The translations under genes were made by a program, and so were the position numbers. This document shows positions 15,481-34,970 of a stretch of 64,000 nucleotides of DNA, one piece after another. Under the pieces are notes generated by a model. The model saw nothing but the letters and a program-made list of their open reading frames with translations, did not search any database and was not told where the DNA came from. Each line of letters starts with the position of its first letter. Within the stretch, counting starts at the first letter, position 1. Where the stretch lies: NCBI GenBank assembly GCA_012026795.1, contig VEPM01000009.1, positions 1-64,000 of the forward strand, written 5' to 3'. The stretch comes from Candidatus Methanoperedens sp. (lineage in GTDB: Archaea > Halobacteriota > Methanosarcinia > Methanosarcinales > Methanoperedenaceae).

Positions 15481-15498
15481 TTGTGAAGAAAGTGTGAA
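15481..15498 (-). promoter_or_regulatory. TTCACA-N5-TTCACA promoter element (MCP 1)
   Basis: On the minus strand, TTCACACTTTCTTCACAA is followed after four bases by TCTTATATTC, a TATA-like stretch. The two TTCACA half-sites are 11 bp apart. The same arrangement precedes seven other genes of the cluster. Confidence 0.65.
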
Positions 15499-15559
15499 AT
15501 AGGAATAATAGACAATAAGATAATAATAATTTTATTAAAAATATAAAAAATTAGGATTT

Positions 15560-15778
15560 TCAGGTTGAGTTTACTGTTTTATACCAATCACATGTCAAAC
15601 AGCTTGCTTTTTTTTGAGCAAAGGATCCTTGAACCTTGCCGCCACAGAAAGTTCCCGCTACAGCCCAGCAATCTCTGCCATGAGAAGGTGATGCGGGACA
15701 GATTCCCAATTCGCTTACTTTTTTTCCGCCTTTCTCTCTTCCGCAATTTTTTAATTCCCAGCAATTATTTGGTGCCAT
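15560..15778 (-). CDS. Stand-alone two-CW domain protein
   Basis: A 72-residue cysteine-rich protein made almost only of a two-CW domain: NCWELKNCGREKGGKKV, then [20 protein letters not shown] and a final CLTCDWY. Seven cysteines follow the spacing of the domain fused to the C-terminus of MCP 5 in this cluster (22083-24527). The domain is known as an accessory part of chemoreceptors and signalling proteins; metal or redox sensing is suspected but not shown. An upstream ATG at 15799 is possible, but the TATA-like stretch at 15804-15810 would place the transcript start near 15782, so ATG 15778 is preferred. Confidence 0.75.
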   Translation of the reverse strand: MAPNNCWELKNCGREKGGKKVSELGICPASPSHGRDCWAVAGTFCGGKVQGSFAQKKASCLTCDWYKTVNST

Positions 15779-15815
15779 AACACTCGTTAATCTCTTCATA
15801 TCATCATAAACCCAA

Positions 15816-15833
15816 TTGTGAAAAATGTGTGAA
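15816..15833 (-). promoter_or_regulatory. TTCACA-N5-TTCACA promoter element (two-CW gene)
   Basis: Minus strand TTCACACATTTTTCACAA, then four bases and GTTTATGATG. Half-sites are 11 bp apart and the distance to the TATA-like stretch matches the other copies. Its position helps choose the start of the two-CW gene. Confidence 0.7.
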
Positions 15834-15839
15834 ATTCAA

Positions 15840-17150
15840 TTATTTTTGTTTGAATAAAGCAATTTCATTTTTTAATTCACCCGATAATTCCGCTAACTCC
15901 CTGGCGATATCTGTGAACCTGCTTATAGATGCCACCTGCTCATGGACCTGTGCATCTGCTTCCTCAATAGCCGCATTATATTTTTTAGCGAGTATGGAAA
16001 TGTCATCAACTGAGGATTTTACTTTTTCCATTGAAGTTGTCTCCATTTTTGCCATTTCAATTATTTCACCGAACATATTAGCAGCATTTTCAGACGCTTC
16101 AACTATACTATCTATTGAAGATATAGTGGAGTCGATCGTTCCTATGCCATCAGTAACGGTTTTTGTTCCATGATCCATGTTATTCACAGCCTTTTTAGTT
16201 TCCTGTTGTATACCTCTTATCAGTCCTGTGATTTCATTTGCCGAATTCCTTGATTCTTCTGCAAGTTTCTTTACTTCATTTGCCACAACAGCAAATCCTT
16301 TTCCATGATCTCCAGCGCGGGCTGCTTCAATTGCAGCATTCAGGGCAAGCAGGTTTGTCTGGTCTGCAATATTAGTTATTACTCCCACTATTTCACCTAT
16401 CTTTTCAGAACTACTATCAAGATTCTTTATAACAACGGCAGATTTATTTACTGAGTTCTGAATATCCTTTATTTTGTTCATCAGGTCTTTTGATTTCTGG
16501 AGTAATTCTTTTGCTGTATTATTGGAATCTTTTGTAACCTGCGCCGTCCTTTCCGATCCAACTGTAACCTGCTGCTTGATGAGTGACATCTCATTTACGA
16601 TCTCATTGATATTTTCTATTTTATTTGATTGCTGGCCTGATACTTCTGCTATACCCTTTGTATTATTTGATATATTATCAATTGAAGATTTCAACCCCCT
16701 GCTTGATTCAGAAAGCTCATGTGCTTTAGTTTCCACTGTTAAAGAGATATTCTGCACCTTTCCAGTAATACACCTGAGTGTAGATGTCATTTTTCTGAAG
16801 TATCCTGCAAGTCTTCCGAGTTCATCATTAGATATAAATTTAATATCTATTGTGAGATCTCCTGCAGATATTCGTTTAGCAGCGATATCAAATTCATTTA
16901 ATGGCTTCATAATGGAACGTGTCAATCCAATGCATATGAATAGAGATGATGTGATTGCTAAAAAAATTAAAATTATGATTATCTCATCAGTGTCAATAAA
17001 CGTGATAATTCTATCATGATAATAGCCAAAATACCCCACGATTAACCACAATATGTTAACTACAATGAAACCATAAGCGATTTTCAGTCCAATATTTAAT
17101 CTATCAAGGGTTAACTTATTGACCTCATCTATAGTTTTCATAAAGCTCAT
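15840..17150 (-). CDS. Divergent sensorless chemoreceptor (MCP 2)
   Basis: 436 residues with the same build as MCP 1: two membrane helices with a loop of about ten residues, HAMP, signalling hairpin. The tip is conserved ([40 protein letters not shown]). The membrane-distal parts are not: the C-terminal arm lacks the usual [20 protein letters not shown] segment found in the other seven receptors and has a diverged sequence with few Glu/Gln pairs. It may therefore be poorly methylated or insensitive to adaptation. The ATG is preceded by AAAGGTAATATT. Only one TTCACA half-site (17181-17188 region) is seen upstream. Confidence 0.9.
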
Positions 17151-17202
17151 AATATTACCTTTTAATTTTTATCTAATATATGTGTGAAAAAAAGCAGCGC
17201 CT

Positions 17203-17715
17203 TTACACGGTCGCTGCTTCTGTTGTTATTTTGTTTATATTATGAAGTTCGTTTGCACTGAGTATCTTATCAAGATTAAGCAAGATAAGCAGCCTGTCTT
17301 CCATCTTTCCTACGCCTCGCACATATTCCGTACCTATCTTATTGGCAATGACAGCAGGTGCCGGCTCAACACTGCTTTCAGGAAGGCGGATGACCTCACT
17401 TACTGCATCAACGATAAAACCCATCACTATCTCGCCGATATCTGCGACAATGATGCGGGTATTCTCATTGTTTTCTTTGCTTTCCATGCCCATTATCACA
17501 TTAAGGTTTATCACCACGATTATCCTGCCGCGAAGGTTGATAATTCCCTTCACATATCCTGATGCCTGCGGTATCTTTGTGATATTGGTCATGCGGATGA
17601 TCTCCTGCACGTTCATGATCTCGACACCGAACTCTTCAGTGCCGATATTAAAAACGACGAGCTGCAGCTCGTCGCCGGATTTTGCTTTTGCATCCTGTGG
17701 TTGTATTTGCGCCAT
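17203..17715 (-). CDS. cheW: CheW adaptor (copy 1)
   Basis: 170 residues, a single CheW (SH3-like) domain that couples receptors to CheA. Landmarks are [20 protein letters not shown] at the N-terminal end, [19 protein letters not shown] in the middle and VRGVGKMEDRLLILLNLDKI at the end. It starts nine bases after the stop of MCP 3 and so forms an operon with it. It is almost identical to the other four CheW copies here; the differences lie mainly at both ends and at a few conservative positions. Confidence 0.95.
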   Translation of the reverse strand: MAQIQPQDAKAKSGDELQLVVFNIGTEEFGVEIMNVQEIIRMTNITKIPQASGYVKGIINLRGRIIVVINLNVIMGMESKENNENTRIIVADIGEIVMGFIVDAVSEVIRLPESSVEPAPAVIANKIGTEYVRGVGKMEDRLLILLNLDKILSANELHNINKITTEAATV

Positions 17716-17724: not shown

Positions 17725-19038
17725 CTATTCACCGATATTGAATTTGGCAACTTCATCCTGCAATTCATTTGATAATTTTGCAAGTTCCCTGGCTGCATTA
17801 ACAAGCACATCCATTGTTGCTGCCTGCTCTTGTGCTGCTGCTGATGTTTCCTGTGTACCTGCTGCCGATTGTTCGCTTATGGCTGACACATCTTCAACAG
17901 ATGCTGTTACTTCTTCAACGGATGCGGATTGTTGTTCTGTGGCTGCTGCAATTTCATTAATCATTGCTGCCACGTCTGCTGCTGCCCTGACTATCTGGTT
18001 GATAGCTGATACTGTGCTTTCCATGATTTTTGTTCCGTCAGAAACGGTCTGCTTACCCTGTTTCATGGCCACAACAGCCTGATTTGTACCCTGCTGTATC
18101 TCTTTTATCAGACTGGTTATCTGGTTTGCAGCACTACGTGATTCTTCAGCGAGTTTCCTTACTTCATCCGCTACCACTGCAAAGCCTCTTCCATGCTCTC
18201 CTGCACGTGCAGCTTCTATGGCTGCGTTCAATGCAAGAAGGTTTGTCTGGTCAGCGATATTAGTGATGACCCCTATTATCTCGCCTATTTGCTGTGATTT
18301 ACCGTCAAGCTGTTTTATTACAGTTGCTGAATTATCCACTGTTGATTGGATCTCAGCAATCTTCTGCGTTACATCACCGGACATTTTACCAACCTGCGAA
18401 GCGGTAGTGCTTGCGGCAGTTGCGCCATCGGCTGCTTTTTGCGAGCTCGTTGCAACTTGCTGGACGCTCTGTGATATTTCCTTCATCGCACGGCTGACTT
18501 CACTAATCTTGGATGCCTGAGAGCTTATACCTGAAGAAATATTCTGCGTGGTGTTTGAAATCTGGTCTGTGGAAGCTTTCATTTCCTCACTTGATCCTGA
18601 AAGTTCCTGGGCAGTAATGGCTACCTTTGATGTGACATTCTGGACTTTGCCTGTTAGAGTCCGCAGATTTAAAGTCATTCTCTTGAAATATTCGGCAAGC
18701 TTTCCGAGTTCGTCCTTTGATGAGACATCTACTTCTATTGTTAAATCCCCCTCAGCGATCTTGTCAGCAGCATTCATAAATTCATTTAAAGGTTTCATTA
18801 TAGAACGGGTCAGTCCTATACACATCAGTACGGATGAAAATATAATGAAAATAATACCAAGTATGATAGCCAGTTTCGGATCAATATAAACGCTTAAGCT
18901 CTCCTCATATAAACCTATAAATCCTATCATTAACATCAGTACATCAGCTACAATGAAGCTGTAAGTGATTTTCAAACCAATATTGAATTTATTAATGGTC
19001 AATTCATTTGCAGCATCGATTATTTTTATTATTTTCAT
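17725..19038 (-). CDS. Sensorless chemoreceptor (MCP 3)
   Basis: 437 residues from the ATG at 19038, chosen because GGAGATAAAA precedes it and the length then matches MCP 1 and 2. An upstream ATG at 19071 is in frame. Two membrane helices with a loop of about ten residues, HAMP, then a full signalling domain with potential methylation pairs. It ends at KFNIGE with no tether. It lies 92 bases after MCP 4 without a promoter element of its own and precedes CheW copy 1, so MCP 4-MCP 3-CheW is a probable operon. Confidence 0.92.
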
Positions 19039-19130
19039 TTTTATCTCCATATTTTTAAAAATATAGGACAAATAAACAACTATTTCAGGCAGAATCAGTG
19101 GCCATACTTTTTTTCAGCCATTGTCTCCTT

Positions 19131-21467
19131 CTATTTTGTCAGTTCTTCAAGGGTCAAATCAGGATGACTGCTTCCAACATCAGCTATCTCATCCTTACTT
19201 GATATAGTGTCTGAAGCACTGTGTTCTTCTGTTTTCTTCCGGGTGCTTTCAGATCCGGGTTTCACAGTTTCATGTTTAGGTGTCTTGTTTTCAGATGCCT
19301 TATGTTCAGGTGCTTTATGTTCAGGTGCTTTATGTTCAGGTGCTTTATGTTCAGGTGCTTTATGTTCATGAACAGGTTTGTTCTCAACCTTTGCAGGTTC
19401 ATACGCATTTTTTTGTTCTTTTGCAGATTTATCAATTTTGAATTTGGCAACTTCAGCCTGTAATTCATTTGATAATTTTGCCATTTCCTGGGCTACATTC
19501 ACAAGCTGGTCCATTGTGGCCGACTGTTCTTCTGCAGATGCTGATGTTTCCTGTGTGCCTGCTGCTGATTGTTCGCTTATGGTTGATACGTCCTCTACTG
19601 AAGAGGTTACTTCTTCAACCGAGGCAGACTGCTCTTGTGCTGCTGCTGCTATTTCCTGAACCATTGTTGCAACGTCTGCCGCTGCTTTGACGATCCCGTC
19701 TATGGCATTCACGGTATCTGCGATTGTTTTTGCGCCTTCACCTACTGTCTTTGTTCCCTGTTCCATAGTCGTTACAGCCTGCTTTGTTCCCTGCTGTATA
19801 TCTTTTATCAATCCTGTGATCTGGTTGGCAGCATCACGTGATTCTTCAGCGAGTTTCCTTACCTCATCAGCAACTACGGCAAAACCCCTGCCATGTTCTC
19901 CTGCCCGTGCAGCTTCTATGGCTGCGTTTAAGGCAAGAAGGTTTGTCTGGTCAGCGATATTAGTGATGACCCCTATTATCTCGCCTATCTGCTGCGATTT
20001 GCCTTCAAGCTGTTTTATAGCAGTTGCTGAACCATCTACAGTTGACTGGATTTCTGACATCTTTTTGGCCACATCTTCTGACAACTTGCCTACGTTCTGT
20101 GCAGTTGTGCTGGCAGCGTCTGCACCTTGTGCTGCCTTCTGGGAGTTCACAGCGACCTGCTGGACGCTTTCTGACATCTCCTTCATGGCACGGGTGATCT
20201 CAGACATTTTGGAAGCCTGTGAGCTTACACCTGTTGCAATCTCCTGTGTGGTGTTTGATATCTGGTCAGTGGATGCTTTCATCTCTTCACTTGATGCTGA
20301 AAGTTCATGAGCCGTGGAGGCTACTTTCAATGCACAGCTTTGCACTTTTCCGATAACTGATCTCAGGTTTTCATTCATAGTACCAAGGGCACCGAATAAC
20401 TGGCCTATCTCATCATTTGACATCCGTTTTACATCGACTGTCAGGTCGCCTGCTGCGATCTTATTGGAGATACGAAGCATTCTGCCGATTGGCTTGGTGA
20501 GGTATCTTGAAAACCATATTCCAATAATCGAACCCAGTACTGAAAAAATTAAGATTACTATTATCAGGCCATTCCTTATTGCATAAACCGGATCGCTGAA
20601 ATCTTCAAGATAACTTCCTGAAGCAATTATCCAATCCCTGGGTTCATAATAAGTATATGCAACCACTTTATCCCTCCCTTCCCATACATATTCAATGTAA
20701 CCTTCTTTTGTTTGTGTTATTTCTTTAATGAAATCATATTCATAGAGATTCTGTCCTTCGAGGTTCGGGTGTATTATCAGGTCGCCTTTTGAGTTAATTA
20801 CATACATATAACCTGTTTTTCCCACGACTATATTTTTCATCATTTCTTTGATTTTATTTACGAATGGATCTTCAGGAATACCAACATACAAAATACCTAT
20901 AATTTTCCCCGATCCGTCCTTAATCGGTTCATAAGCCGTAAGATACCATGCATTAACTACCCATGCCCTGCCGTAATATGTTTCACCGCGCGTTATAACA
21001 GCATCATACACCGGTTTTGAAACTGTTGTTCCCACTGCGCGTGAACCATCGGTATTAATTACATTTGTTGAAATCCGGACCGCTTCATCCCCTATAACCT
21101 GAAATACCGTTGCTGTACCCCCTACCATATTTTTAACTGAATCTACAATCTCAAAGTTCCCATTCACTACATGATTGTTGCCAAGTTGCATCTTGCCATT
21201 TACGATACTGGGTTTTCCCCTGGAATAGAATTGGGTTTTTGCAACTCCGAGTGAATTGTTGACATTATCCTGTGCAAGAGAAAATGTCATATCTACGATA
21301 TCTTTTTCCAGTTTAACCTGTTCTGTTAATTTACTCTGTATCTCTGTATTTAATGAGCTTTCCATTTCATTATAGGCATATAAACCGATGATCATCACAG
21401 GTATTATCGATAAAATCAATCCAAAAATTATAATTTTATATTTTATGCTGATGTCTTTGGTTTCCAT
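19131..21467 (-). CDS. Chemoreceptor with Cache sensor and charged C-terminal tether (MCP 4)
   Basis: 778 residues from the ATG at 21467 (GGAAAGAG upstream; a TTG at 21485 is less likely). A membrane helix near 10-30 is followed by an extracytoplasmic region of some 250 residues that reads as a Cache_3/Cache_2 sensor ([51 protein letters not shown]). Then come a second membrane helix, HAMP and the signalling hairpin. After the hairpin (KFKIDKS) a tether of about 90 polar residues contains tandem EHKAP units and ends in LTLEELTK. Ligands of Cache domains are small organic acids, amino acids or similar compounds; which one applies here cannot be read. Confidence 0.92.
19291..19365 (-). repeat. 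15-bp tandem repeat coding for EHKAP units
   Basis: Five head-to-tail copies of a 15-bp unit (plus strand TCAGGTGCTTTATGT), four of them perfect and the first with two changes. On the minus strand they encode repeated EHKAP pentapeptides in the tether of MCP 4. Units this uniform suggest recent slippage and probable length variation between strains. Confidence 0.9.
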
Positions 21468-21531
21468 AATATTCGCTCTTTCCAAAAATTTTAGGTAATG
21501 ATAAAATAAATTTACCGATTTATAAATAGAT

Positions 21532-21549
21532 TTGTGAAAAAGGTGTGAA
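21532..21549 (-). promoter_or_regulatory. TTCACA-N5-TTCACA promoter element (MCP 4)
   Basis: Minus strand TTCACACCTTTTTCACAA, four bases, then ATTTATAAAT as TATA box. It lies 65 bases before the start of MCP 4 and just after the 3' end of CheW copy 2, which belongs to the preceding operon. Confidence 0.75.
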
Positions 21550-21571: not shown

Positions 21572-22090
21572 TTACACGGTCGCTGCTGCCGCTTCTGTTG
21601 TTATTTTGTTTATATTATGAAGTTCGTTTGCGCCAAGTATCTTATCAAGATCAAGGAGAATAAGCAGCCTGTCTTTCATCTTGCCTACGCCGCGCACATA
21701 TTCCGTACCTATCTTATTTGCAATGACAGCAGGTGCCGGCTCAACACTGCTTTCAGGAAGGCGTATTACCTCACTTACTGCATCAACGACAAAACCCATC
21801 ACTGTCTCGCCGATATCCGCGACAATGATGCGTGTATTCTCATTATGTTCTTTGCTTTCCACACCCAATATCACATTCAGGTTTATTACCACGATTATCC
21901 TGCCGCGAAGGTTGATTATTCCCTTCACATATCCTGATGCCTGTGGTATCTTTGTGATATTGGTCATGCGGATGATCTCCTGCACGTTCATGATCTCAAC
22001 ACCGAACTCTTCAGTGCCGATATTAAAAACGACGAGCTGCAGCTCGTCGCCGGATTTTGCTTTTGCATCCTGTGGTTGTTTTTCAGCCAT
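21572..22090 (-). CDS. cheW: CheW adaptor (copy 2)
   Basis: 172 residues from the ATG at 22090, which gives the same N-terminus ([18 protein letters not shown]) as the other copies; the frame is open further upstream but only inside the receptor gene. The CheW domain is complete. Its start overlaps the stop of MCP 5 by eight bases, so translation is coupled to that receptor. Confidence 0.95.
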
Positions 22091-24527
22091 TATGTCCTCC
22101 ATTATTGACTTCTTTATACCATTCACAAACCATGCAACTAACCTGTTTTTGAGCCGCTGTTCCCTGTACCTTTCCACCACAGAATGTTCCTGCGACTTTC
22201 CAGCAATCTCGTCCGTTATCAGGGCTGGCCTTACACACGCCCAGTTCTTTCACATTCTTTCCGCCAACTTCCCTTCCGCATTTCTTGAATTCCCAACAGT
22301 TTGCAGGTGCAACCAGATCCTGACTGAAATGACTGTCTTTCAATTCAGCCTTTTCATCCTTTGATGCCTTATGCACCTGTTTTGATTCTGTTGAAGCACC
22401 ATCACCAAGATTGAACTTATTCACTTCGGAATTTAAATCCGAGGCTAATCTTGCCATTTCCTGGGCTGCGGCTACAAGCTGTTTCATTGTAGCTGCCTGC
22501 TCTTCAGCGACCGCAGATGTTTTCTGTGTGCCTGCTGCTGATTGTTCACTTATACTTGAAACATCATCTACTGAAGATGTGACTTCCTGAACCGAGGCAG
22601 ACTGTTCCTCGGCGGTTGCTGCTATTTCCTGTACCATTGTTGCAACATCTGCCGCTGCTTTGACGATCCCGTCTATGGCATTCACGGTATCTGTTATGTT
22701 CTTTGCGCCTTCACCTACTGTCTTTGTTCCCTGTTCCATTGCAGTCACAGCCTGTTTAGTGCCCTGCTGTATCTCTTTTATCAGGCCAGTGATCTGGTTG
22801 GCAGCATCGCGTGATTCTTCAGCGAGTTTCCTGACTTCATCAGCAACTACTGCAAAACCCCTGCCGTGTTCTCCTGCTCGTGCAGCTTCTATGGCTGCGT
22901 TTAAGGCAAGGAGGTTAGTCTGGTCTGCGATATTGGTGATAACCCCTATTATCTCACCTATTTCCTGCGATTTACCAGCAAGCTGTTTGATGACTGTTGC
23001 AGAATTATCTACATTTGACTGTATCTCTGTCATCTTTTTCGATACATCAGCTGACAATTTGCCTACATTCTGGGCAATGGAGCTGGCTGAACCAGCACTT
23101 TCAGAGGCTTTCTGGGCATTCACGGCGACTGTCTGGATGCTTTCTGACATTTCTCTCATGGCACGGCTCACCTCAATCATTTTGGATGACTGGGAGTTTA
23201 CGCCTTTTGCTATATCCCGCGTGCTATCTGATATCTGGTCAGTGGCTACTTTCATCTGTTCGCTTGATGCCGAGAGTTCCTGGGCAGTAGATGCTACTTT
23301 TTCGGCGCTGGCCTTCATGGACGATATAAGTTTATATATGCTGTTTTGCATTATCTGTATACCAGTGGTGATTTTCTCGAAATCTCCTTTTGCCTGCACC
23401 GATATATTTTTGGTCAGATCACCCATGGACATTGCAGAAAGTACCCTATTGGTGTCCGCGATAACAGCATTCAAATCGTTCGCCATGGTCTGGAATGTAT
23501 TTGAAAGTACACCTATTTCATCTTTTGAATTATTGAGCAACTTAACATCCAGTTTCCCATCTGATATTGTCTTTGCACCTGATATTAATTCATCCACAGG
23601 TTTTGTGATCAGGCTGCGAATAACAAAGCCAATGCCAAGACCTGATACTATGGCTACCAGAGAGAGCATTAATACAGCTGTTTTTGCAGTTGAATTTGTA
23701 CTTGCCATTTCGGTAATCTGTGCTACTTTATCGTCCCCGGCATCTTTTTCGAACTCAGCTATCAGGGGTTCTATAGTATGAACGTAATTTGTGAATTCGG
23801 CTGTTTTTGATGCTATATTGGTATCGGTAGTAACCAATTTATCAAAAGTTGCGGTATATGCAAGTAATTTTGTATTAATAATGTTCTTTTTATCCTGAGA
23901 TATTTTGCTTGCTGCCAGATCGTTTATGAGTATCTTTTCATTATCGTGCAGTGTCTTCTGATTTGCAACGTCTTTTCTTATTATATAATTCTTTTCATCC
24001 CGCCTCAATTCCAATATTTCTGCGTATAAGAGATTATCCCCCTGGTTTTTGATTTCAGTTTCAACATCACTGGCTTTTGTAATAAGTTCAAGCTGTAGCC
24101 CTGAGCTTTCATCAAATCCTTTTATCTTATAGAGTTCAACAGTCTCAAGAAAGGCTTTTTCATAAGCTTCTATTGCGGTTATTATTTTTCCTGCCATCTC
24201 CTTTCTTTCCTGGGGGACGTCAAGTTCCTGAATATCCTGCGCCTCTTTCCTGACTTTTGCTACAGAAGCTTTTACCTTATCGACATATGTAAGATCAAGA
24301 CGCGCAAAAAAGTCTTTCTCAGAGCGTCTTGCCTGAAGCATATTTACATCTATGGAAAGACTCTTTTCGTTCATTGCGATCGTATTTTCGATCACTTTGT
24401 TATTTCCATCCTGGATAGTGTTCATTGTTGTTATACTTACTAAAGTTATTATTAAAAGCAGGAGACTGATAAGACCGAACCCCCCTAATAACTTCTTGCT
24501 CAAAGATATATCTTTTATACTTACCAT
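22083..24527 (-). CDS. Chemoreceptor with HBM-type sensor and C-terminal two-CW domain (MCP 5)
   Basis: 814 residues. The N-terminal membrane helix is followed by about 240 helical residues with paired [12 protein letters not shown] and [13 protein letters not shown] motifs, the signature of a helical bimodular (HBM) sensor, a family known to bind organic acids in characterised cases. After the second membrane helix come HAMP (about 304-357) and a second HAMP-like unit ([10 protein letters not shown]), then the signalling hairpin. The C-terminus carries a two-CW domain ([17 protein letters not shown] to CMVCEWY) in place of the tether seen in neighbours. The promoter element at 24628-24645 lies 101 bases upstream. 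Confidence 0.92.
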
Positions 24528-24627: not shown

Positions 24628-24645
24628 TTGTGAAAAAGGTGTGAA
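24628..24645 (-). promoter_or_regulatory. TTCACA-N5-TTCACA promoter element (MCP 5)
   Basis: Minus strand TTCACACCTTTTTCACAA, then ATCC and GTTTATAAAC, a strong TATA box. The 18-base core is identical to that of MCP 4. Confidence 0.75.
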
Positions 24646-24659: not shown

Positions 24660-25181
24660 CTACACGGTCGCTGCTTCTGTTGCTTCTGTTGTTATTTTGT
24701 TTATATTATGAAGTTCGTTTGCGCTGAGTATCTTATCAAGGTCAAGGAGAATAAGCAGCCTGTCTTCCATCTTTCCTACGCCGCGTACATATTCCGTACC
24801 TATCTTATTGGCAATAACAGCAGGTGCCGGCTCAACACTGCTTTCAGGAAGGCGGATGACCTCACTCACTGCATCAACGACAAAACCCATTACGGTCTCG
24901 CCGATATCCGCGACAATGATGCGCGTATTCTCATTATGTTCTTTGCTTTCCATACCCAATATCACATTAAGGTTTATTACCACGATTATCCTGCCGCGAA
25001 GGTTGATTATTCCCTTCACATATCCTGATGCCTGCGGTATCTTTGTGATATTGGTCATGCGGATGATCTCCTGCACGTTCATGATCTCGACACCGAACTC
25101 TTCAGTGCCGATATTAAAAACGACGAGTTGCAGCTCGTCGCCGGATTTTGCTTTTGCATCCTGTGGTTGTATTTCTGCCAT
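24660..25181 (-). CDS. cheW: CheW adaptor (copy 3)
   Basis: 173 residues, a complete CheW domain nearly identical to the other copies, differing mainly in the extreme C-terminus (ITTEATEAATV). It begins nine bases after the stop of MCP 6 and shares that operon. The stretch encoding SGDELQLV keeps the palindrome of the other copies with one change. Confidence 0.95.
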   Translation of the reverse strand: MAEIQPQDAKAKSGDELQLVVFNIGTEEFGVEIMNVQEIIRMTNITKIPQASGYVKGIINLRGRIIVVINLNVILGMESKEHNENTRIIVADIGETVMGFVVDAVSEVIRLPESSVEPAPAVIANKIGTEYVRGVGKMEDRLLILLDLDKILSANELHNINKITTEATEAATV

Positions 25182-25189: not shown

Positions 25190-27571
25190 CTATTTTATCA
25201 GCTCATCAAGACCTTCGACTGCAGTACTGATACTTTCCTGTGGTTTTTTGTCCTTAGCTGAAATCTTGCCAGGAGTTGTATGTTCCTTCTGTTTCTTCTT
25301 GCTTTCAGCAAGTTTATGTTCTGTGGTCTTGCTTTCAGTGATCCCATGGTCAGGAATTGGTTTTTGCTCTACCTTCGATGGTTCCATTATCTTCATTGGT
25401 TCCTGCGCCTGTTTTATTGTATATGAAGCTGTTTCACCCAGATAGAACTTACTCACTTCAGCCTGCAGTTCATTTGATAGTCGTGCAAGTTGCTGGGCTG
25501 CATTCACAAGCTGGCCCATTGAAGCTGACTGCTCTTCTGCAGCCGCTGATGTTTCCTGTGTTCTGGCTGCTGATTCCTCGCTAATTGCAGATACGTCTTC
25601 AACAGATGCGGTTACTTCCTCGACTGACGCAGACTGTTCTTCAGCCGCTGCAGCTATTTCCTGAACCATTGTGGCAACAGATACCGCAGCTTTGACTATT
25701 TCATTAATGGCAGTTATGGTATCCGCTACATTCTTTGCGCCCTCACCTACCGTCTTTGTGCCCTGTTCCATTGCAGTCACAGCCTGTTTAGTGCCCTGCT
25801 GTATCTCTTTTATCAGGCCAGTGATCTGGTTGGCTGCATTCCTTGATTCCTCAGCAAGTTTCCTGACCTCATCCGCGACCACTGCAAAGCCCCTGCCATG
25901 TTCTCCTGCGCGCGCAGCTTCTATGGCAGCGTTTAATGCAAGCAGATTTGTCTGGTCTGCAATGTTTGTGATAACCTCGATAATCTCCCCAATTTGCTGG
26001 GATTTCCCATCAAGCTGTTTGATAATTGCTGCAGAACCACCCACGGTTGATTGTATCTCTGACATCTTTTTTGCCACATCATCCGACATCTTGCTCACAT
26101 TTTGCGCTGTCGTGCTGGCTGAGTTTGCTCCTTCTGCGGCTTTCTGGGAGTTCTTCGCGACCTGCCGGACGCTTTCTGACATCTCCTTCATGGCGCGGCT
26201 TATCTCAACCATCTTTGTGGCCTGTGAACTTACGTCGGTTGCTATATCCTGTGTTGTATTTGATATCTGGTATGTTGAGACTTTCATTTCCTCACTTGAT
26301 GCCGAGAGTTCCTGGGCTGTGGACGATACGTTCAGCGCCGACTGCTGCACTTTTCCAAGCACACCCTTTAAATTCCCGGCCATGGTGTGGATGGCATTTG
26401 ATAATTTTCCAACTTCATCTTTTGAATCATTCTTGAGCTGTATAGTAAGGTCGCCTTCAGCGACTTTATTTGAAGCATTAAGCATTGCATCTATCGGTTT
26501 TGTGATGGTTCCTTTCACCATTTTACCCAGTACAGCGGTACAGATTATTAGAGAACCAATTATTATCAAAAACATTGTATTCTTCAGTTTGCTGAGCGTT
26601 ATATCTCCCTGCAGCAGTTCATCATAACTTTTTATATTTGCGATGCTCCAGCCAAACAGCGGCAGCTTTCTGTATATAATATAGTATGTGGTGCCATTGT
26701 CTTCATATGACCCTGTGCCTTCCCTGCCTTCTTTCATCAGCAAAACATACTCTCTGAAGCCCTCGCTTGTGGATATGGTATCAACCGAAGGCATATAATC
26801 CTTAAAAACAGAATTTTCCGGTTCCTCTCCTTTTTTCAGGTTAATATCTATATTGCTGGCGCTGTCCGCTATCAGGAAGTTATCACGGTCAAGAACAAAG
26901 GTCCTGCCTGAGCCTGTCTTGCCGATGATTCCCTGGAAGTATGAGATTGGCATCTCAAAGTGATACAATGCGGGCTTACTGCCATCTTCCAGGAATATTG
27001 GGGTAGCATAAGCAAAAACCCATTTTAACGCATCGGCTGACATATAGGGATATGCCACATGGACTTCGTTTTCCTTATCGATCATGAGCGTTTTCTTAAA
27101 AAAATCAGACCCGTCCTCCTCACTGGAGAAATCTTCAACGGGCGCTATCTCCCTGTTTGTTATTCTTGAATGTTCCTGACCTGTACTGTCAATTAGACAG
27201 GTTTCCTCAACAGGCATCCTGCTCTGGATAAATTGCGTCCATTCCCCGATTTTTTCCCTCAGTTCATTCTGCCTGGGGGTGAACTGGATAATCCCCTGAT
27301 CATTGTATATATTACCATTTTTTGTTTCTGGAAGATAAAAGTATTCCCTAAAGACAGGATAATTTACAGCGATAACCAGATCATTGCTTGCGCTGTCATG
27401 TAAAGACTGGATTTCATTGATTTTTTGATCCATTTCCTTATCCATGGACTGCAATGCACTGCCCGTCACTGCCCTCTCAGTAACAAAAAAAGAAAACAGG
27501 CTGCTCAGGGATAGAATTATCAAAAGAAGAAGGCCAATCGGAAGGATTAATTTATATTTTATTGAAACCAT
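25190..27571 (-). CDS. Chemoreceptor with double-Cache sensor and tether (MCP 6)
   Basis: 793 residues. After the first membrane helix an extracytoplasmic domain of about 300 residues reads as a dCache sensor ([80 protein letters not shown]). A second membrane helix, HAMP and a full signalling hairpin follow. The tether of about 75 residues ([19 protein letters not shown] onward) ends in GLDELIK, a variant of the LEDLTK end shared with MCP 4, 7 and 8. dCache domains bind amino acids and other small metabolites. Promoter element at 27660-27677. Confidence 0.92.
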
Positions 27572-27659
27572 TTTTATGTCTCCGTTTTTTATATAAATGA
27601 GAATGTCTGATCAATCTATTTTTATAGGATAGAAGCAATCTGCATCCTGATATAGAGAT

Positions 27660-27677
27660 TTGTGAAAAAAGTGTGAA
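27660..27677 (-). promoter_or_regulatory. TTCACA-N5-TTCACA promoter element (MCP 6)
   Basis: Minus strand TTCACACTTTTTTCACAA, four bases, then CTATATCAGG as TATA-like stretch. It lies about 90 bases before the MCP 6 start. Confidence 0.7.
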
Positions 27678-27700: not shown

Positions 27701-28219
27701 TTAAGTGGTCGCTGTTGCCGCTTCGGAGGCTATGGTATTTACATTATGAAGTTCACTTGCGCTGAGTATCTTATCAAGATCAAGGAGAATAAGCAGCCTG
27801 TCTTCCATCTTGCCTACACCGCGTACATATTCCGTACCTATCTTATTGGCAATCACAGCAGGCGCCGGTTCAACACTGCTTTCAGGAAGGCGTATTACTT
27901 CACTTACTGAATCAACGACAAAACCCATCACTGTCTCGCCGATATCAGCAACAATGATGCGCGTATTCTCATTATGTTCTTTGCTATCCATGCCCATTAT
28001 CACGTTCAGGTTTATTACCACGATTATTTTGCCGCGAAGGTTGATTATTCCTTTCACATATCCCGATGCCTGCGGTATTTTTGTGATATTGGTCATGCGG
28101 ATGATCTCCTGCACGTTCATGATCTCGACACCGAACTCTTCAGTGCCGATATTAAAAACGACGAGCTGCAGCTCGTCGCCGGATTTTGCTTTTGCATCCT
28201 GTGGTTGTATTTGCGCCAT
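27701..28219 (-). CDS. cheW: CheW adaptor (copy 4)
   Basis: 172 residues with a complete CheW domain. It differs from copies 1-3 at a few positions, for example GKIIVV for GRIIVV, GMDSKE for GMESKE and DSVSEV for DAVSEV. The gap to the stop of MCP 7 is nine bases, so it is cotranscribed with that receptor. Confidence 0.95.
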   Translation of the reverse strand: MAQIQPQDAKAKSGDELQLVVFNIGTEEFGVEIMNVQEIIRMTNITKIPQASGYVKGIINLRGKIIVVINLNVIMGMDSKEHNENTRIIVADIGETVMGFVVDSVSEVIRLPESSVEPAPAVIANKIGTEYVRGVGKMEDRLLILLDLDKILSASELHNVNTIASEAATATT

Positions 28220-28228: not shown

Positions 28229-30775
28229 CTATTTTGTCAGGTCTTCAAGACTTTCAACAGGCTGAGGGCTCTTATCTTGAGTTATTTCCTCATTTACTGG
28301 AATCTTATCTTGAGTTTTGTCTGAAGTTTTGGGTTCGACTGTTTTCTTCTGATTAACTGTCCGCTTATGGTCAGCAGTCTTATGCTCCGGGACATGTTTA
28401 GGTTCAGCCTTTGGTTTTTCTGGAACATGTTTAGGTTCTACCTTTGGTTGTTCCGGGACGTATCTGGTTTCCATCGCTGGCTGCCCGTGAACATTTTTTG
28501 ATGTCAAGACAGAATCTCCAAGATTGAACTTTCCAACTTGATCCTGCAGTTCATTTGATAACATAGCCATATCCTGGGCAGCTTTTACAAGCTGTTCCAT
28601 TGAAGCAGATTGCTGTTCTGCAGCTGCTGATGTTTCCTGTGTGCCTGCTGCGGATTGTTCGCTTATAGCTGAAACATCCTCTACTGAGGAAGTCACTTCT
28701 TCAACAGATGCCGATTGTTCTTCTGCGGCTGCCGCTATTTCCTGAACCATTGTTGCAACCTCTGCTGCTGCTTTGACGATCTCGTTTATGGCATTCACGG
28801 TATCTGCGATTGTCTTTCCTCCTTCACCTACCGTTTTTGTTCCCTGTTCCATGGTCGTTACAGCCTGTTTTGTGCCTTGCTGTATATCTTTTATCAATTC
28901 CGTGATCTGGTTGGCTGCGCTACGGGATTCTTCAGCTAGCTTCCTTACTTCATCAGCAACAACCGCAAAGCCTCTTCCATGCTCTCCCGCTCTTGCTGCT
29001 TCTATTGCCGCGTTCAATGCAAGCAGATTTGTCTGGTCAGCGATATTTGTGATAACACCGATTATTTCACCTATCTTTTGTGATTTACCATCAAGCTGTT
29101 TTATAACACCTGCCGAATTATCCACTGTTGACTGTATTTCTGTCATCTTATTAGCAACATCATTTGACATTTTGCCCACTTTCTGGGCTGTTGTGCTGGC
29201 TGCATTTGCGCCTTCGGCTGCTTTCTGTGAATTCGAGGCAACCTGCTCGACGCTTTCTGATAGCTCCTTCATGGCACGGGTTATTTCAGCCATCTTGGTT
29301 GCCTGTGCGCCTACACCCCTGGCAATGTCCTGTGATGTGCCGGATATCTGGTCTGTTGAGGCTTTCATCTGTTCGCTTGTAGCTGAAAGTTCCTGGGCGG
29401 TTGAAGCCACTCTTTCGGCGCTTTGCCTCATGGATAGTATTAATTGCTGCAAGCTCTTTTGCAGGTTATCCACGCCGTTTGTTATCTTGCCGAAATCACC
29501 TTTACCTTCAACCTGGATATGTTTTGTCAGGTCGCCATGGGACATCGAATCCAGTACTTCATTGACATCGCCGATAACTCCCTGGATATCTGTCTGCATG
29601 TTGGTTATCGATGAAGTTATTTTGCCGAAATCGCCTTTTGCTTCCACCTGGATATGCTTTGAGAGGTCTCCTTCTGATATTGCTCCCATCACATTGCTAA
29701 CATCTCCGATTACATTATTCAGGTCATTTGCCATATTCTGGAATGTGCCGGAGAGCGTGCCAATTTCGTCCTTAGACGTATTTTGCATACTGACATTGAG
29801 TTTTCCTGAAGCAATGTCTTTGGCACCAAGGACAACTTCATCCACTGGTCTTGTGATAGCGCGGGAGATATATATCCCGATACCAAGACCGGATACTATC
29901 GCTATTATGGAGAGTATGATTATCGTAGTTTTAGCAGTTGAATTCGTTGTGGCTATTCCAGCAAGTGCCGTGATTTGTTCTTCGTCTGCTGCTGTTTCAA
30001 AAGCTGTGATTTCGGGCTCTATGGCATGCACAAAGGTTGTGAATTCTGCTGTTTTGGATGCTATCTTGGTATCAATATCTACTATCTTGTCAAAGGCTGC
30101 CGTATATGTGACGAGTTTGATATTAATATCATCCTTTACATTCTGAGGAAGAGAGCTTGCTGCAAGATGGTTTTTCATTATCAATTCATTATCATGCAAT
30201 TTCTTTTGGTATGCCACGTCCTGCCGCATTATGTAATCTTTTTCATTCCTCCTCAGTGTCAGCATATCTGCCATAAGCTGGTCATTATTCTGTTTCTGTA
30301 TATCTGCTTCAATAACAGCCACAGCACTCCTCATTTCAAATTGAAGTCCCTGGGTCTCATCGAGACCTTTTGTTTTAATTAGTTCAACAGTCTCAAGGAA
30401 GGCTTTTTCATAACCATTAATGTCAGCAATTATTTTTTCTGTTGCGTCCTTTTGTTCCTGGGGTATATTAAGTGCTTTTATCTCCCCTGCTTGTTTCCTG
30501 ACGTTTGAAACCGAAGCTTTTACTTTATCGACGTATGAAAGATCACGACGCGCAAAAAAGTCTTTCTCAGAACGTCGTGCTTCAAGCATAGAAACGTCTA
30601 TAGCGAGACTTTTTTCTTTCATTGTTATGGTATTATCTATAACATTATCAGTTTCCGTTTTAATTGTTCCAAGCGTGGCTATGCTTACCACTGCTACTAT
30701 TATGAGCAGAATACTGACGAGGCCAAAACCTCCGAGCAGCTTCTTGCTTAATGACAGGTCTTTTAAGTTAACCAT
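28229..30775 (-). CDS. Chemoreceptor with HBM-type sensor, poly-HAMP and tether (MCP 7)
   Basis: 848 residues from the ATG at 30775, which has GGAGG six bases upstream; the longer frame to 30856 begins inside the promoter. The sensor is HBM-like ([20 protein letters not shown] and [13 protein letters not shown]). After the second membrane helix three HAMP-like units follow ([49 protein letters not shown]), then the signalling hairpin. The tether contains repeated EPKHVPE-type units and ends in ESLEDLTK. It is the largest receptor of the cluster and closely related to MCP 5 in the sensor. Confidence 0.92.
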
Positions 30776-30868
30776 TTTATTCCTCCATGTTTCTTTCAAG
30801 ATTATTAGTAAATTTGGCGGGAAATTACTATATGTTATAACGAGAAATGCACACATTCAAATATGGGA

Positions 30869-30886
30869 TTGTGAAATACGTGTGAG
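30869..30886 (-). promoter_or_regulatory. TTCACA-type promoter element (MCP 7)
   Basis: Minus strand CTCACACGTATTTCACAA, four bases, then ATATTTGAAT. The outer half-site has one change (CTCACA) from the consensus. Spacing to the TATA-like stretch is the same as in the other copies. Confidence 0.6.
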
Positions 30887-30953: not shown

Positions 30954-31469
30954 TTATGCGGTTACTGCTGCTTCTGTTGCTATGTTGTTTATATTGTGCA
31001 GTTCGTTTGCGCTGAGTATTTTATCAAGGTCAAGGAGAATAAGCAGCCTGTCTTCCATCTTTCCTACGCCGCGTACATATTCCGTACCTATCTTATTGGC
31101 AATGACAGCAGGTGCCGGCTCAACACTGCTTTCAGGAAGGCGTATTACCTCACTTACTGAATCAACGACAAAACCCATCACTGTCTCGCCGATATCAGCA
31201 ACAATGATGCGCGTATTCTCATTGTTTTCTTTGCTTTCCATACCCATTATCACGTTCAGGTTTATTACCACGATTATTTTGCCGCGAAGATTGATAATTC
31301 CCTTCACATATCCTGATGCCTGCGGTATCTTTGTGATATTGGTCATGCGGATGATCTCCTGCACGTTCATGATCTCAACACCGAACTCTTCAGTGCCGAT
31401 ATTGAAAACGACGAGCTGTAGCTCGTCGCCGGATTTTGCTTTTGCATCCTGTGGTTGTTTTTCTGCCAT
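30954..31469 (-). CDS. cheW: CheW adaptor (copy 5)
   Basis: 171 residues with a complete CheW domain. It shares GKIIVV and DSVSEV with copy 4 but the MAEKQPQ start with copy 2, a mosaic pattern that fits gene conversion among copies. It starts nine bases after MCP 8. Confidence 0.95.
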   Translation of the reverse strand: MAEKQPQDAKAKSGDELQLVVFNIGTEEFGVEIMNVQEIIRMTNITKIPQASGYVKGIINLRGKIIVVINLNVIMGMESKENNENTRIIVADIGETVMGFVVDSVSEVIRLPESSVEPAPAVIANKIGTEYVRGVGKMEDRLLILLDLDKILSANELHNINNIATEAAVTA

Positions 31470-31478: not shown

Positions 31479-33371
31479 CTATTTTGTCAGGTCTTCAAGA
31501 CTTGGACCCGGAGGACTGCTTCCGACATCAATTACCTCATCCTTATTTGGTATAGTGCCTGAAGTATGGTCTTCCTTCGGTTTCTTCTGACTGCCTTCAG
31601 GTTTGTGTTTGGTAGTTTTTTGCACTTCAGGCATGCGTTGTACAATCCTGTGTTCAATTTTCTTGTGTTCAACATATTTTCTTTCAGGGGCAGGTTTGTA
31701 CTCGGATGTTGCTGGCTCATATCCATGTTTTTGTTCTTTTGCAGACTCACCGATGTTGAACTTGGCAACTTCTTGCTGAAGATCGGATGCCAATTGTGCC
31801 ATATTCTGGGCAGCGCCAACAAGCTGGTCCATTGTAGCTGCCTGTTCCTCTGCGGCTGCTGATGTTTCCTGTGTGCCTGCTGCGGATTGTTCGCTTATGG
31901 CTGATACATCCTCAACAGACGCTGTTACTTCTTCAACCGAGGCAGACTGCTCTTCTGCGGCTGCTGCTATTTCCTGCACCATTGTAGCAACGTCTGCTGC
32001 TGCTTTGACGATAAGGTTGATGCCGGTTACTGATTCTTTCTCCATGCTCTCCACAGCCTGTTTTGTGCCTTGCTGTATGCCTTTTATCAAATCTGTTATC
32101 TGGCTTGCTGCGCCGCGGGATTCTTCTGCAAGTTTCCTGACCTCATCGGCAACTACTGCAAAACCCCTGCCATGCTCTCCTGCCCTTGCAGCTTCTATTG
32201 CAGCGTTCAATGCAAGGAGGTTTGTCTGGTCTGCGATATTTGTTATCACGCCAATGATCTCACCTATCTGCAGGGATTTGTTATCAAGGTCTTTAATTAA
32301 AGTGGCGGACTTTGTCACATTCACCTGGACTTCCTGGGCAGTTTTATTAGCATTTGTTGCGCTGTCAGCCGCCTTCTGTGAGTTCACTGCGACCTGCTGG
32401 ACGCTTTCTGACATCTCCTTCATGGCGCGGCTTATCTCTGCCATCTTTGTGGCCTGCGAGCTTACGCCCGTTGAAATGTCCTGTGTGGTGCCTGATATCT
32501 GGTCGGTAGATGCTTTCATTTCTTCGCTTGAAGCCGAAAGTTCCTGGGCGGTGGAAGCCACATTCATTGAAGATTGCTGCACTTTTCCAAGCACTCCTTT
32601 TAAGCTATTTGTCATTATCTGTATGGCATTGGAAAGCTGCCCAACTTCATCTTTTGAGTTATTTACAAGTTGCACTGTCAGGTCGCCTGCCGCAATCTTG
32701 TTGGCAGCCTGGAGCATTTCATCCATGGGTTTGGTGATCGAGCGGGAGATATAAATCCCGGTGCCGAATCCCGTTATTGCAGCAACAATACTCACAATTA
32801 TAATAGTCATTGTCGCATTTTTCGCTGCGGCCTCTGCTTCTCCTTCGGATTCCTTCATCTGAGCCACCTGCATACTTTCAAATTCTTCGAGAGCAATATC
32901 CAATTTTTTCCTGTCCTCGTCAAATCTATCCATTGCAGTTACTACATCGGTATTTTTCTCAAGCTTTGCAGCTTCGATCGTTTCAATAAATTTTTTCGCC
33001 GATTCTTCATATTTTGAGTGTAGAATACTTATATCTTCCAGATCCTTTTTTTCTTCCGCATCCAAATCCATGCTCAGCAATGCAGCCTCAGCCTTTTCGA
33101 AATCCTTCTTAGATTCTTCAAAATCAATTTTTGCATCTGCCTCCCCAAGACCATATGAATTGACTGCATCTGCGCTTGTCAGTATGGCTGTCTGCATCCC
33201 TGCGACATTACTTGCCATAGGCACATCAGCTGTCAAGATACTGTCAAGTTCTGAATTTATCGTATTCACGCCATTATATCCTATAAACCCAACAATGGCA
33301 AGAAGTATCACGACCACACTGAATCCACCGATCAGCTTCTTGCTCAAAGATATATCTTTTATACTTACCAT
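31479..33371 (-). CDS. Chemoreceptor with four-helix-bundle sensor and shortened signalling hairpin (MCP 8)
   Basis: 630 residues. The extracytoplasmic part (about 35-190) is a four-helix-bundle (4HB_MCP-like) sensor between two membrane helices, followed by HAMP and the signalling hairpin. Compared with its neighbours the hairpin lacks 14 residues in the descending arm (after NANKTAQ) and 13 in the ascending arm (after ESMEK), so both arms are shorter by about two heptads. The tip and methylation regions are intact. The tether is rich in Lys, Glu and His and ends in PSLEDLTK. Promoter element at 33471-33488. Confidence 0.92.
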
Positions 33372-33690
33372 TTTAGTTTATTCCTCCATTGATTATGATT
33401 CTGTCTGAGAGTGCGACCCCTCAGATTAGTACTGAATATCAAAGAGAAAGCTACCAGTTTATAAACGGATTTGTGAAAATTGTGTGAACTCGATAGGGTA
33501 CTTCTGGAGAAAAAACGCTATTATTATGCAATATAATTGTTAGCATATTGCTATACATTAGCTATAAAATTATACTAAAAGCTATTTTTCTGATATCAAA
33601 TTGCTATATAGCTTGCAGCAACGATGTTATTGTTGACATTATCTTTGTGATATTATTTTGTTGGAAATTGGAAAACAATAAAAATAATTC
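33372..33690. other. AT-rich gap between MCP 8 and the kaiC-linked frame
   Basis: Apart from the promoter element of MCP 8 (33471-33488) this stretch holds no gene. From about 33520 to 33680 it is very AT-rich, with recurring TAGCTAT/TTGCTAT words similar to those seen after flaD (36255-36300) and before rnhA (39185-39230). No structure beyond that was recognised. Confidence 0.5.
33471..33488 (-). promoter_or_regulatory. TTCACA-N5-TTCACA promoter element (MCP 8)
   Basis: Minus strand TTCACACAATTTTCACAA, then ATCC and GTTTATAAAC. The TATA box is identical to that of MCP 5 and the site lies about 100 bases before the MCP 8 start. Confidence 0.75.
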
Positions 33691-34152
33691 TTATTTCCTT
33701 TTATGTGGCCTGAACCCTTCAAGGAAACGTGGGATTTCCGTAGCCCTGCTTTTCCCCATAAATCCAGGCAACTCATTCAAGGAGGGTTTTTCCATACTAT
33801 GATCAGGTCTGGATTCCTCTTCTTGATTAATATGATTAACTATAGGATTTCTGACTGGGACTTTAACTGCTGCCTGAGTTACTTTTTCAGGGGTTTTTGA
33901 TCCTTCAATAGTTTTGTCCCTGCTGGTTTTCCCTTTGATCTTGCCATCAGCATAATAGGAATCAGGCGTTTTTATCCCTAATATTGAAGCTTTAGCTATG
34001 AGGTCATTATAATCTCTTAAAACCCAGCCAATTTCAGAATGGTTCTTGAGCCCGACTTCAAAGCCAAGCTCATATATTTTCTTTATGACCTGTGCCCTTT
34101 CCTTTTCTGCGCTTTTACTGATAATACGTAAAACCCCTTTATTTACTTTTAA
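33691..34152 (-). CDS. Conserved-looking frame without a normal start codon, overlapping the kaiC-like gene
   Basis: An open frame of about 150 codons begins inside the last codons of the KaiC-like gene, in the +1 frame relative to it, and runs to TAA at 33691. Its early part (GVLRIISKSAEKERAQVIKK, then a segment with IYELGFEVGLKNHSEIGW and DYNDLIAKASILGI) is clearly protein-like. The C-terminal half is polar and rich in Lys and Pro. No ATG, GTG or TTG occurs before the last fifth. Either translation starts at a rare codon (an ATT lies eight bases after AAAGGGG), or ribosomes shift from the KaiC frame near its stop, or a mutation split a fused gene. I do not recognise the family. Confidence 0.6.
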   Translation of the reverse strand, partial: LKVNKGVLRIISKSAEKERAQVIKKIYELGFEVGLKNHSEIGWVLRDYNDLIAKASILGIKTPDSYYADGKIKGKTSRDKTIEGSKTPEKVTQAAVKVPVRNPIVNHINQEEESRPDHSMEKPSLNELPGFMGKSRATEIPRFLEGFRPHKRK

Positions 34153-34894
34153 TCAATTTCCCAACTTTTAAACCTTTATCAGTAAACTCAATAGATCGCA
34201 TTTCACAATCATGTTTTGTCCCGCGCATTTTCAGGATTTGCAAAGCACGGACCATACTTCCCTGCTTATCCATGAAATTATGCAGGAATATCACGCCGTG
34301 GGATGCGAATTGTTCTATTGTATAAGCATCGGGCTTTGTAAGCTCGGATAACAAAATAGTTGTGCATCCAAGAGTTTTCAGGTTACGGATGAACCTCCCG
34401 ATAGAACGCTCTTCAGTTGCAGGGTTCTGTGTTGTGAACCTGATCGAAGATAACGAATCGATAACCAATCTCTTAATGCCATACTGCTGTACCTGTTTTT
34501 CTACCTCCTTGAAAACAGAAAATGGAGTAGGCGCTTGATTTGCAGGGGTATCCCCCGATTGTTGGTGATAATCGGGAGTGATAACATTTGATATCTCATC
34601 ATATTCCCCATAATTTGCAGAAGGACCGAGATCTATAAAAAACAATTTTTTATTCTTGACAAGATCTACGACCTGTGGATTATATCTGGTCATATCTTCT
34701 ATAATCGTTCCGATACTTTCGGATAATGCAATATATGCTCCTGTTTCGCCTTGAAGAATTCCTGCCAGGAGGAATTGGACGCCAAAAGTAGTCTTGCCGC
34801 TGCCAGGGGAGCCACTCAATAAGTATTGTCTTTCTTGCAGCAATCCTCCTTCGACAAGTGCGTCAAATCCTTCAATTCCTGATTTTATTCTCAT
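34139..34894 (-). CDS. KaiC-like RecA-fold ATPase
   Basis: 251 residues, one KaiC domain. Walker A is GSPGSGKT at residues 28-35 and Walker B-like RLVIDSLSS follows near 150. FlaH of the archaellum and many archaeal signalling ATPases share this fold. It sits between the chemoreceptor cluster and a divergent FlaD/E gene, and its promoter carries the same TTCACA element as the receptors. A role in taxis or archaellum signalling is therefore likely, but that is inference. GAGGT precedes the ATG. FlaH itself is usually about this length but is encoded in the fla operon, which is not seen here. Confidence 0.85.
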   Translation of the reverse strand: MRIKSGIEGFDALVEGGLLQERQYLLSGSPGSGKTTFGVQFLLAGILQGETGAYIALSESIGTIIEDMTRYNPQVVDLVKNKKLFFIDLGPSANYGEYDEISNVITPDYHQQSGDTPANQAPTPFSVFKEVEKQVQQYGIKRLVIDSLSSIRFTTQNPATEERSIGRFIRNLKTLGCTTILLSELTKPDAYTIEQFASHGVIFLHNFMDKQGSMVRALQILKMRGTKHDCEMRSIEFTDKGLKVGKLIKSK

Positions 34895-34952
34895 AATGAA
34901 CCTCGTAATAAGCTAATTATATGTGATTAAATTTTTCTCTATATAAACGCAG

Positions 34953-34970
34953 TTGTGAAAAGTGTGTGAA
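34953..34970 (-). promoter_or_regulatory. TTCACA-type promoter element (kaiC-like gene)
   Basis: Minus strand TTCACACACTTTTCACAA, four bases, then GTTTATATAG as TATA box. It lies about 60 bases before the KaiC-like start, between it and the divergent flaD. This is the only copy outside the receptor block. Confidence 0.75.

Follow-up and report, generated by a model that had tools for sequence, protein, structure and literature searches.

A TTCACA direct-repeat element as the likely operator of a taxis regulon in Methanoperedenaceae, with a probable ribbon-helix-helix protein as candidate regulator

In the available open-access literature, few regulators of archaeal motility are described (EarA, CsmR, and the Sulfolobus factors), and none turned up for anaerobic methanotrophs. 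EarA, from Methanococcus and the Thermococcales, is reported as a winged helix-turn-helix activator that binds one to four copies of a short TACATA-type repeat just upstream of the transcription factor B (TFB) recognition element (BRE) of the archaellum promoter, before the first archaellin gene, where it compensates for a weak BRE (PMC10665913, PMC5512572). CsmR of Haloferax volcanii is described as an Lrp/AsnC-type protein that governs archaellum and chemotaxis genes together from a semipalindromic TATCA(N4)TGATA site upstream of the BRE and TATA box, and a KaiC-like partner, CirA, shares its regulon (PMC13286277). This work examines a stretch of 64,000 nucleotides from Candidatus Methanoperedens sp. 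(contig VEPM01000009.1, positions 1 to 64,000; referred to here as the window), in which a repeated promoter element precedes chemoreceptor genes and a KaiC-like ATPase gene. From its sequence and distribution, this element almost certainly marks a real taxis regulon. Neither the element nor the protein that we propose as its reader was found described in the open-access literature, and the open-access work on regulons of anaerobic methanotrophs yielded nothing on the element.

The element reads TTCACAC-N4-TTCACAA-N5-TTTATA, that is, two 7-bp heptads in direct repeat, 11 bp apart, placed 5 bp before a TATA box. A first-pass annotation of the window had listed eight minus-strand sites with TTCACA followed by TTCACAA at 11 bp, and all eight were located with this layout: seven are exact matches to TTCACAN5TTCACAA, and the site at 30869 carries a single mismatch (CTCACAC). 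The first heptad could be refined to TTCACAC. The annotation had also proposed a fixed distance to the TATA region, which held, and an interval of four bases, which did not, as the TATA-like stretch begins 5 bases past TTCACAA. This stretch is good at six sites and poor at 27660 (TATATCAG) and 30869 (TATTTGAA). The window holds no further exact or one-mismatch match, and the number of exact matches expected from a first-order Markov estimate is 0.005. All eight sites are intergenic, though 90% of the window is coding according to the gene list used here. Among TTCACA pairs at gaps of 0 to 24, only the gap of 5 is represented, seven times. When up to three mismatches were allowed, the window gave 33 matches versus a shuffle mean of 31.9; genome-wide, matching at two to three mismatches gave 65 + 71 versus 48 + 54. 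Because the count at up to three mismatches equals the shuffle mean, the signal is confined to near-exact sites, and permissive matching is mostly noise.

This layout resembles the EarA and CsmR systems in position but departs from both in the site itself. Compared with EarA, the site is TTCACA-type, is paired at 11 bp, stands 5 bp from TATA, and is also found before receptors, kinases, and the KaiC-like gene; the conserved repeats are TTCACAC and TTCACAA, not of TACATA type. The element likewise differs from the CsmR site, being a direct repeat with no TATCA(N4)TGATA arrangement, and its candidate reader is a probable ribbon-helix-helix (RHH) protein.

Pfam analysis of the window detected eight receptors, five CheW genes, a KaiC-like gene, and a divergent FlaC/FlaD-type gene; all features given below lie on the minus strand unless noted. 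The element at 15481..15498 (TATA-like stretch 15468-15475) precedes the chemoreceptor MCP1 (14074..15399; HAMP and MCPsignal domains), and that at 15816..15833 (TATA-like 15803-15810) precedes a small two-CW gene (15560..15799), which takes its name from the first-pass annotation and has no Pfam match. The element at 21532..21549 (TATA-like 21519-21526) stands before MCP4 (19131..21485; Cache, HAMP, and MCPsignal domains), which is followed on the same strand by MCP3 (17725..19071), a CheW gene (17203..17715), and MCP2 (15840..17150). Four further sites each head a receptor-CheW pair: 24628..24645 (TATA-like 24615-24622) before MCP5 (22083..24527) and a CheW gene whose longest open reading frame (ORF), 21572..22180, overlaps the next gene and has an uncertain start; 27660..27677 (poor TATA-like 27647-27654) before MCP6 (25190..27571) and CheW (24660..25181); 30869..30886 (poor TATA-like 30856-30863) before MCP7 (28229..30856) and CheW (27701..28219); and 33471..33488 (TATA-like 33458-33465) before MCP8 (31479..33371) and CheW (30954..31469). 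The last site, 34953..34970 (TATA-like 34940-34947), precedes the KaiC-like gene (34139..34894), and this placement is kept upstream of KaiC-like genes in other Methanoperedens. The coordinates thus agree with the first-pass annotation that six of the eight receptor genes or operons are preceded by the element, as are the two-CW and KaiC-like genes, both with exact matches, and that the divergent flaD gene (35060..36247, plus strand) is not, there being no exact or one-mismatch site before it. The remaining two receptors (15840-17150 and 17725-19071) lie in the same orientation behind a receptor gene that has its own site, and all eight receptors may be covered if the MCP4-headed run forms one operon. 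For MCP7 (28229-30856) and the two-CW gene, a transcript start could not be fitted in ahead of the longest-ORF start, and the true gene starts probably lie downstream of those listed.

The KaiC-like protein matches Pfam KaiC, scores far below the ArlH cutoff, and is 94 to 95% identical to proteins from isolate LFW-24 and strain BLZ2. A partner gene of ∼145 amino acids (33694..34131) lies just downstream and is conserved with it; the pair (33694-34894) extends into the Methanosarcinaceae, where it occurs without the element.

In the whole genome (3.59 Mb), 16 exact YTCACACN4TTCACA sites were found versus ∼0.13 expected for the T-only form, and eight of them lie inside the window; the motif is therefore not scattered at random, as a regulon would have it. 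The exact sites elsewhere precede a ninth receptor (contig C8, position 6798), two histidine kinases (C6:3956 and C9:69328), a REC-PadR protein (C40:13465), a 346-amino-acid protein designated RHH346 (C6:162201), a 120-amino-acid membrane-type protein, M120 (C12:111137), and a 157-amino-acid membrane-type protein, M157 (C19:14523); the remaining one (C12:61847), without the TATA spacing, falls into a different, non-taxis class. One-mismatch sites precede a third histidine kinase (C8:26608) and two archaellins (C26:2897 and C22:50484); others fall inside or beside unrelated genes (C10, C23, C27, and C60). The C26 archaellin is followed on the same strand by a second archaellin, a KaiC-domain protein in the ArlH position, and T2SSE and T2SSF proteins, and then by a single-receiver CheY-like protein, CheB, CheA, CheR, CheC, and CheD. 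The first-pass annotation had named hits before archaellum genes, cheA, or cheY as support for a regulon, and such a hit is thus present outside the window at the head of an archaellum run that continues into the che genes. This run is probably one transcription unit that would carry the che genes on the archaellin's transcript, in which case a single element type would serve receptors, archaellum, and che genes. The genome has ten receptor genes: a site lies immediately upstream of seven, two more are arranged behind MCP4, itself headed by a site, in the same orientation, and the one on C40 lacks a site. The ninth receptor (L111:4544-6739) has an NCBIfam two-CW domain match at its C terminus, a parallel to the small two-CW gene in the window.

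Lineage specificity was gauged by counting the exact 13-base core in 185 genomes of the order, with the reversed pattern as a control. The core occurs 177 times in the genus Methanoperedens (31 genomes; control, 4), 10 times in two other genera of the family (3 genomes; control, 0), and 22 times in the other families of the order (151 genomes; control, 12). Given these counts and the lack of the element before KaiC-like genes in the fetched Methanosarcinaceae loci, the system is specific to the Methanoperedenaceae. No match to the full 29-base layout was found in viral contigs.

Layout and downstream genes were analyzed in stretches around the family's 187 exact sites, all of which were recovered. 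A TATA-like hexamer begins exactly 5 bp downstream of the 18-bp element at 130 of 187 sites, compared with a mean of 1.7 and a maximum of 5 when downstream sequence was shuffled, and the layout noted in the window is thus kept in related genomes. By class, this spacing is found at 27 of 27 archaellin, 18 of 18 KaiC-like, 12 of 12 RHH346, and 43 of 60 receptor sites. The sequence logo of the 187 sites reads TTCACAC-N-T-T-T-TTCACAA-(C/A)-T-(C/T)-(C/T)-G-TTTATAT; of the four spacer bases between the heptads, the first varies freely and the other three are mostly T. A conserved G (0.67) is also seen at logo position 35, ∼11 bp past the TATA start.

Downstream genes were assigned by a mechanical rule, namely the first start codon within 500 bp that opens at least 100 codons, or at least 30 if running off the stretch end, by which short genes are missed and wrong frames are possible. 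At 155 of 187 sites, the ORF so assigned has a match among the regulon genes of the source genome, a figure that is partly circular because class labels come from blastp against that genome's genes. The classes comprise 60 receptors, 27 archaellins, 18 KaiC-like genes, 12 RHH346, 12 M120, 10 M157, 10 histidine kinases, 4 REC-PadR, 1 CheW, and 1 CheY-like receiver (in G052, where the label reflects only receiver similarity of a 267-amino-acid ORF). Receptors, archaellins, and CheW alone account for 88 of the 187 sites. The regulon is also wider than taxis proper and includes histidine kinases, the REC-PadR protein, and small membrane proteins.

Across the 34 genomes of the family, the number of sites tracks the number of receptors (Spearman, 0.90; receptor counts are Pfam matches, and a single gene may yield two). 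Six receptor-less genomes have no sites (G048, G050, G054, G056, G060, and G061) and a seventh has one (G055). Exceptions are G058, with four sites and no receptor found (84% complete), G072, with two sites and no receptor, and G063, with one receptor and no site. A FlaD/E gene is present in 31 of the 34 genomes, and FlaD/E alone does not bring the element. Two points weigh against a taxis regulon of this reach: no gene was assigned at 32 of 187 sites (17 with an unmatched ORF and 15 with no ORF by the rule, some of these sites belonging to the non-taxis class), and close relatives among the genomes are not independent samples. We nonetheless read the element as the operator of a lineage-specific Methanoperedenaceae taxis regulon, a role suggested by its position and by the genes behind it.

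Two accounts would explain the sites with no dedicated regulator of this kind. In one, they are copies of a single ancestral promoter that spread along with the receptor genes. The receptor-CheW units are indeed paralogous, and neighboring flanks can be alike, as at 21532 and 24628, but the element and TATA box stay constant while the flanks and the first base of the spacer vary, and the element stands before unrelated genes (archaellins, KaiC-like genes, kinases, and RHH346) on separate contigs and in many species. Duplication with no common regulator is disfavored on these grounds and strains belief. In the other, an alternative TFB recognizes the element as a variant of the core promoter, as the fixed TATA distance and the position beside the BRE might suggest. 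Two heptads 11 bp apart extend beyond a BRE, however, and TFIIB repeats do not follow the element: one ORF with two repeats was found in 29 of 34 genomes regardless of the element, two ORFs only in G054, and none in G058, G066, G068, and G073. Since an additional TFB matching the presence of the element was not seen among the 34 genomes, this highly improbable account was rejected.

The regulon's factor is somewhat more probably than not RHH346. Of the 23 genomes that have at least two sites, 21 encode a close orthologue (at least 66% identity), and the 11 genomes with zero or one site all lack one; in the 151 genomes of the order's other families, no match was found at an E value of ≤1e−60. 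In a tree from which duplicate rows (L001, L110, L041, L045, and L046) and non-RHH rows were left out, the orthologues form one clade with 100/100 support, separate from paralogues that are 30 to 37% identical. The gene stands behind its own element on C6, and its promoter carries the element in 12 of 21 genomes (exact in 11, with 12 sites, and with one mismatch in G045). In G041, G042, G046, G051, G067, and G068, the gene order is M157/M106-type, C190, RHH346, RHH223, REC210, element, archaellins, the M157 gene of G046, G051, and G068 not having been picked up by the ORF list. The first 45 residues of RHH346 are a probable RHH domain, as judged from an alignment reading and from weak Pfam RHH_1 matches over these N-terminal residues in 3 of 14 family members (best E value, 0.00078). 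A low-confidence structure model places helices at residues 11-16, 18-23, and 28-44. The remainder of the protein gave no Pfam or Protein Data Bank match of weight.

Several observations count against RHH346. It went undetected in two genomes with three sites each, G047 (87% complete) and G073 (67% complete). Its own N terminus has no Pfam match, solved structures searched with profiles of the whole family and of its N terminus gave chance-level matches only, and the structure model of an orthologue, built from three sequences, is poor (mean predicted local distance difference test score [pLDDT], 42.6). The co-occurrence test is confounded, because the element's distribution would be shared by any taxis gene, and REC210 matches it slightly better (23 of 23 genomes with at least two sites and 1 of 11 with fewer). 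As REC210 co-occurs as well, distribution alone cannot pick between the two; the DNA-binding look of RHH346, its apparent self-regulation, and its place in the cluster do.

A real regulon read by another factor is the chief alternative, tentative but worth weighing, and several proteins could fill that role. REC210 matches the element's distribution, yet Pfam finds only a receiver domain in it, with an unassigned C terminus. RHH223, a second probable RHH protein, lies directly before REC210 and archaellin or che genes in many genomes, including G047 and G073, where RHH346 was not detected; it was not found beside REC210 in the stretches of five site-rich genomes (G000, G044, G064, G045, and G057, with 5 to 14 sites each; elsewhere in these genomes it was not sought), which weakens it as a universal factor. 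A winged-helix-like protein of 260 amino acids occurs in a minority of the fetched loci, and the zinc-ribbon-like C190 is a further candidate. An EarA-type activator encoded elsewhere would suit the position of the element, as EarA occupies short repeats immediately ahead of the archaellum-promoter BRE, but its reported sites are TACATA-type (PMC10665913, PMC5512572). The REC-PadR protein has a PadR-type domain and the element in front of its gene at four sites, but full-length matches occur in only 6 of 34 genomes, compared with 23 genomes that have at least two sites. As a general factor it is barely conceivable and was rejected on distribution; it may be a target.

REC210 was also noted in its own right (L121:2200-2832) as a receiver protein that lies directly before archaellins in many genomes and shares the distribution of the element. 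M157, M106 (small membrane-type proteins), and C190 (190 amino acids) form a conserved run (G000:C19:14523 and L041:13211-14490) that is headed by the element in the source genome and several others, and this run probably belongs to taxis.

PhoB/OmpR-type response regulators of bacteria bind tandem boxes of comparable build, a direct repeat of two 7-bp half-sites separated by 4 A/T-rich bp. REC210, the taxis receiver, has no output domain of this type; the genome was not screened for PhoB/OmpR-type proteins. Among RHH proteins, omega (ParB) of plasmid pSM19035 is reported to bind 7-bp nonpalindromic repeats, two direct repeats with high affinity, and TTCACA is one base from its ATCACA; its sites, however, are contiguous arrays of 7 to 10 heptads at a bacterial plasmid centromere (PMC9499535). 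Here there are two heptads with a 4-bp spacer at archaeal promoters. The archaeal-virus RHH regulators SvtR, AvtR, and F55 offer a second comparison, with repeated sites beside the BRE/TATA region and self-regulation; they are described as small viral proteins and mostly repressors (PMC5569661), whereas RHH346 has a large C-terminal part with no Pfam match.

With RHH346 as the reader, the protein would bind as two adjacent units, such as two dimers side by side on heptads one turn apart, and would lie directly against TFB and the TATA-binding protein (TBP), with the second heptad abutting a CTCCG-like BRE. The constant TATA distance fits such contact, and the likely action is therefore activation by recruiting TFB and TBP to a promoter with an atypical BRE. 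Activation is further favored because EarA, from a comparable position, has been proposed to recruit TFB to a weak BRE (PMC5512572, PMC10665913). The opposite sign, with RHH346 covering the BRE as a repressor and taxis genes coming on upon release, is possible but unlikely. With 5 bp between the second heptad and TATA, a bound protein would overlap the BRE, and it speaks against activation that archaeal-virus RHH factors are reported mostly to repress by occlusion, their own genes included (PMC5569661). A repressor, on the other hand, needs no TATA distance fixed to one base pair (130 of 187 sites), and activators of archaellum genes are described at this same position (PMC10665913, PMC13286277). 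On balance, we favor the combined explanation of a taxis operator at which RHH346 acts as a candidate activator, with modest confidence. The genes under its control would be the receptors with their CheW partners, the archaellum-che run, extra archaellins, the KaiC-like gene and its partner, the conserved membrane-protein run, some histidine kinases, and the regulator itself.

Some of the exact sites form a second class of heptad arrays, with sequences such as TTCACACN4TTCACACCAAGCTTAATCAAAATGTGAAAAG; a third heptad is often present upstream, an inverted TGTGAA lies downstream, and TATA is missing at +5. Such arrays were found at L335:4902-4929, L336:7801, L341:5768, L342:3709-3736, and L116:6848-6875. 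The gene behind them is one that we take to be Fae-like, and no RNA family was found near the Fae-type site. In G045 and G052, RHH346 paralogues lie within a few kilobases of second-class sites, beside genes that are presumably Rieske-like and cytochrome-like. Paralogues of RHH346 of ∼480 amino acids, two or three per locus, occur in conserved clusters with such genes (L332:4338-11042, L335:6327-9696, L337:3478-10433, L338:3443-12398, L339:4437-11111, and L343:4338-10048). An 8.5-kb contig, C5, repeats part of the C20 cluster (L334 and L332) and is either a duplication or an assembly strain variant. The second class and its paralogue neighborhood are a lead, not a result. They raise the speculative prospect, which we regard as doubtful, of a new archaeal regulator family with an RHH head and a large, perhaps sensory, tail, expanded in Methanoperedens and reading TTCACA heptads, in which one member commands taxis, while paralogues beside respiratory-chain genes and Fae-like arrays run parallel circuits.

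In existing transcriptomes, archaellin genes are reported to respond to growth on an electrode (PMC10874420), and a response of flagellar genes to oxygen is cited in PMC11264602. The element gives a readable list of taxis genes, including receptors, kinases, and uncharacterized proteins, for an uncultivated group, and it offers a sharp, testable candidate regulator and promoter design. If the broader proposal of a TTCACA-reading family were true, swimming and methane metabolism would be wired by one regulator family.

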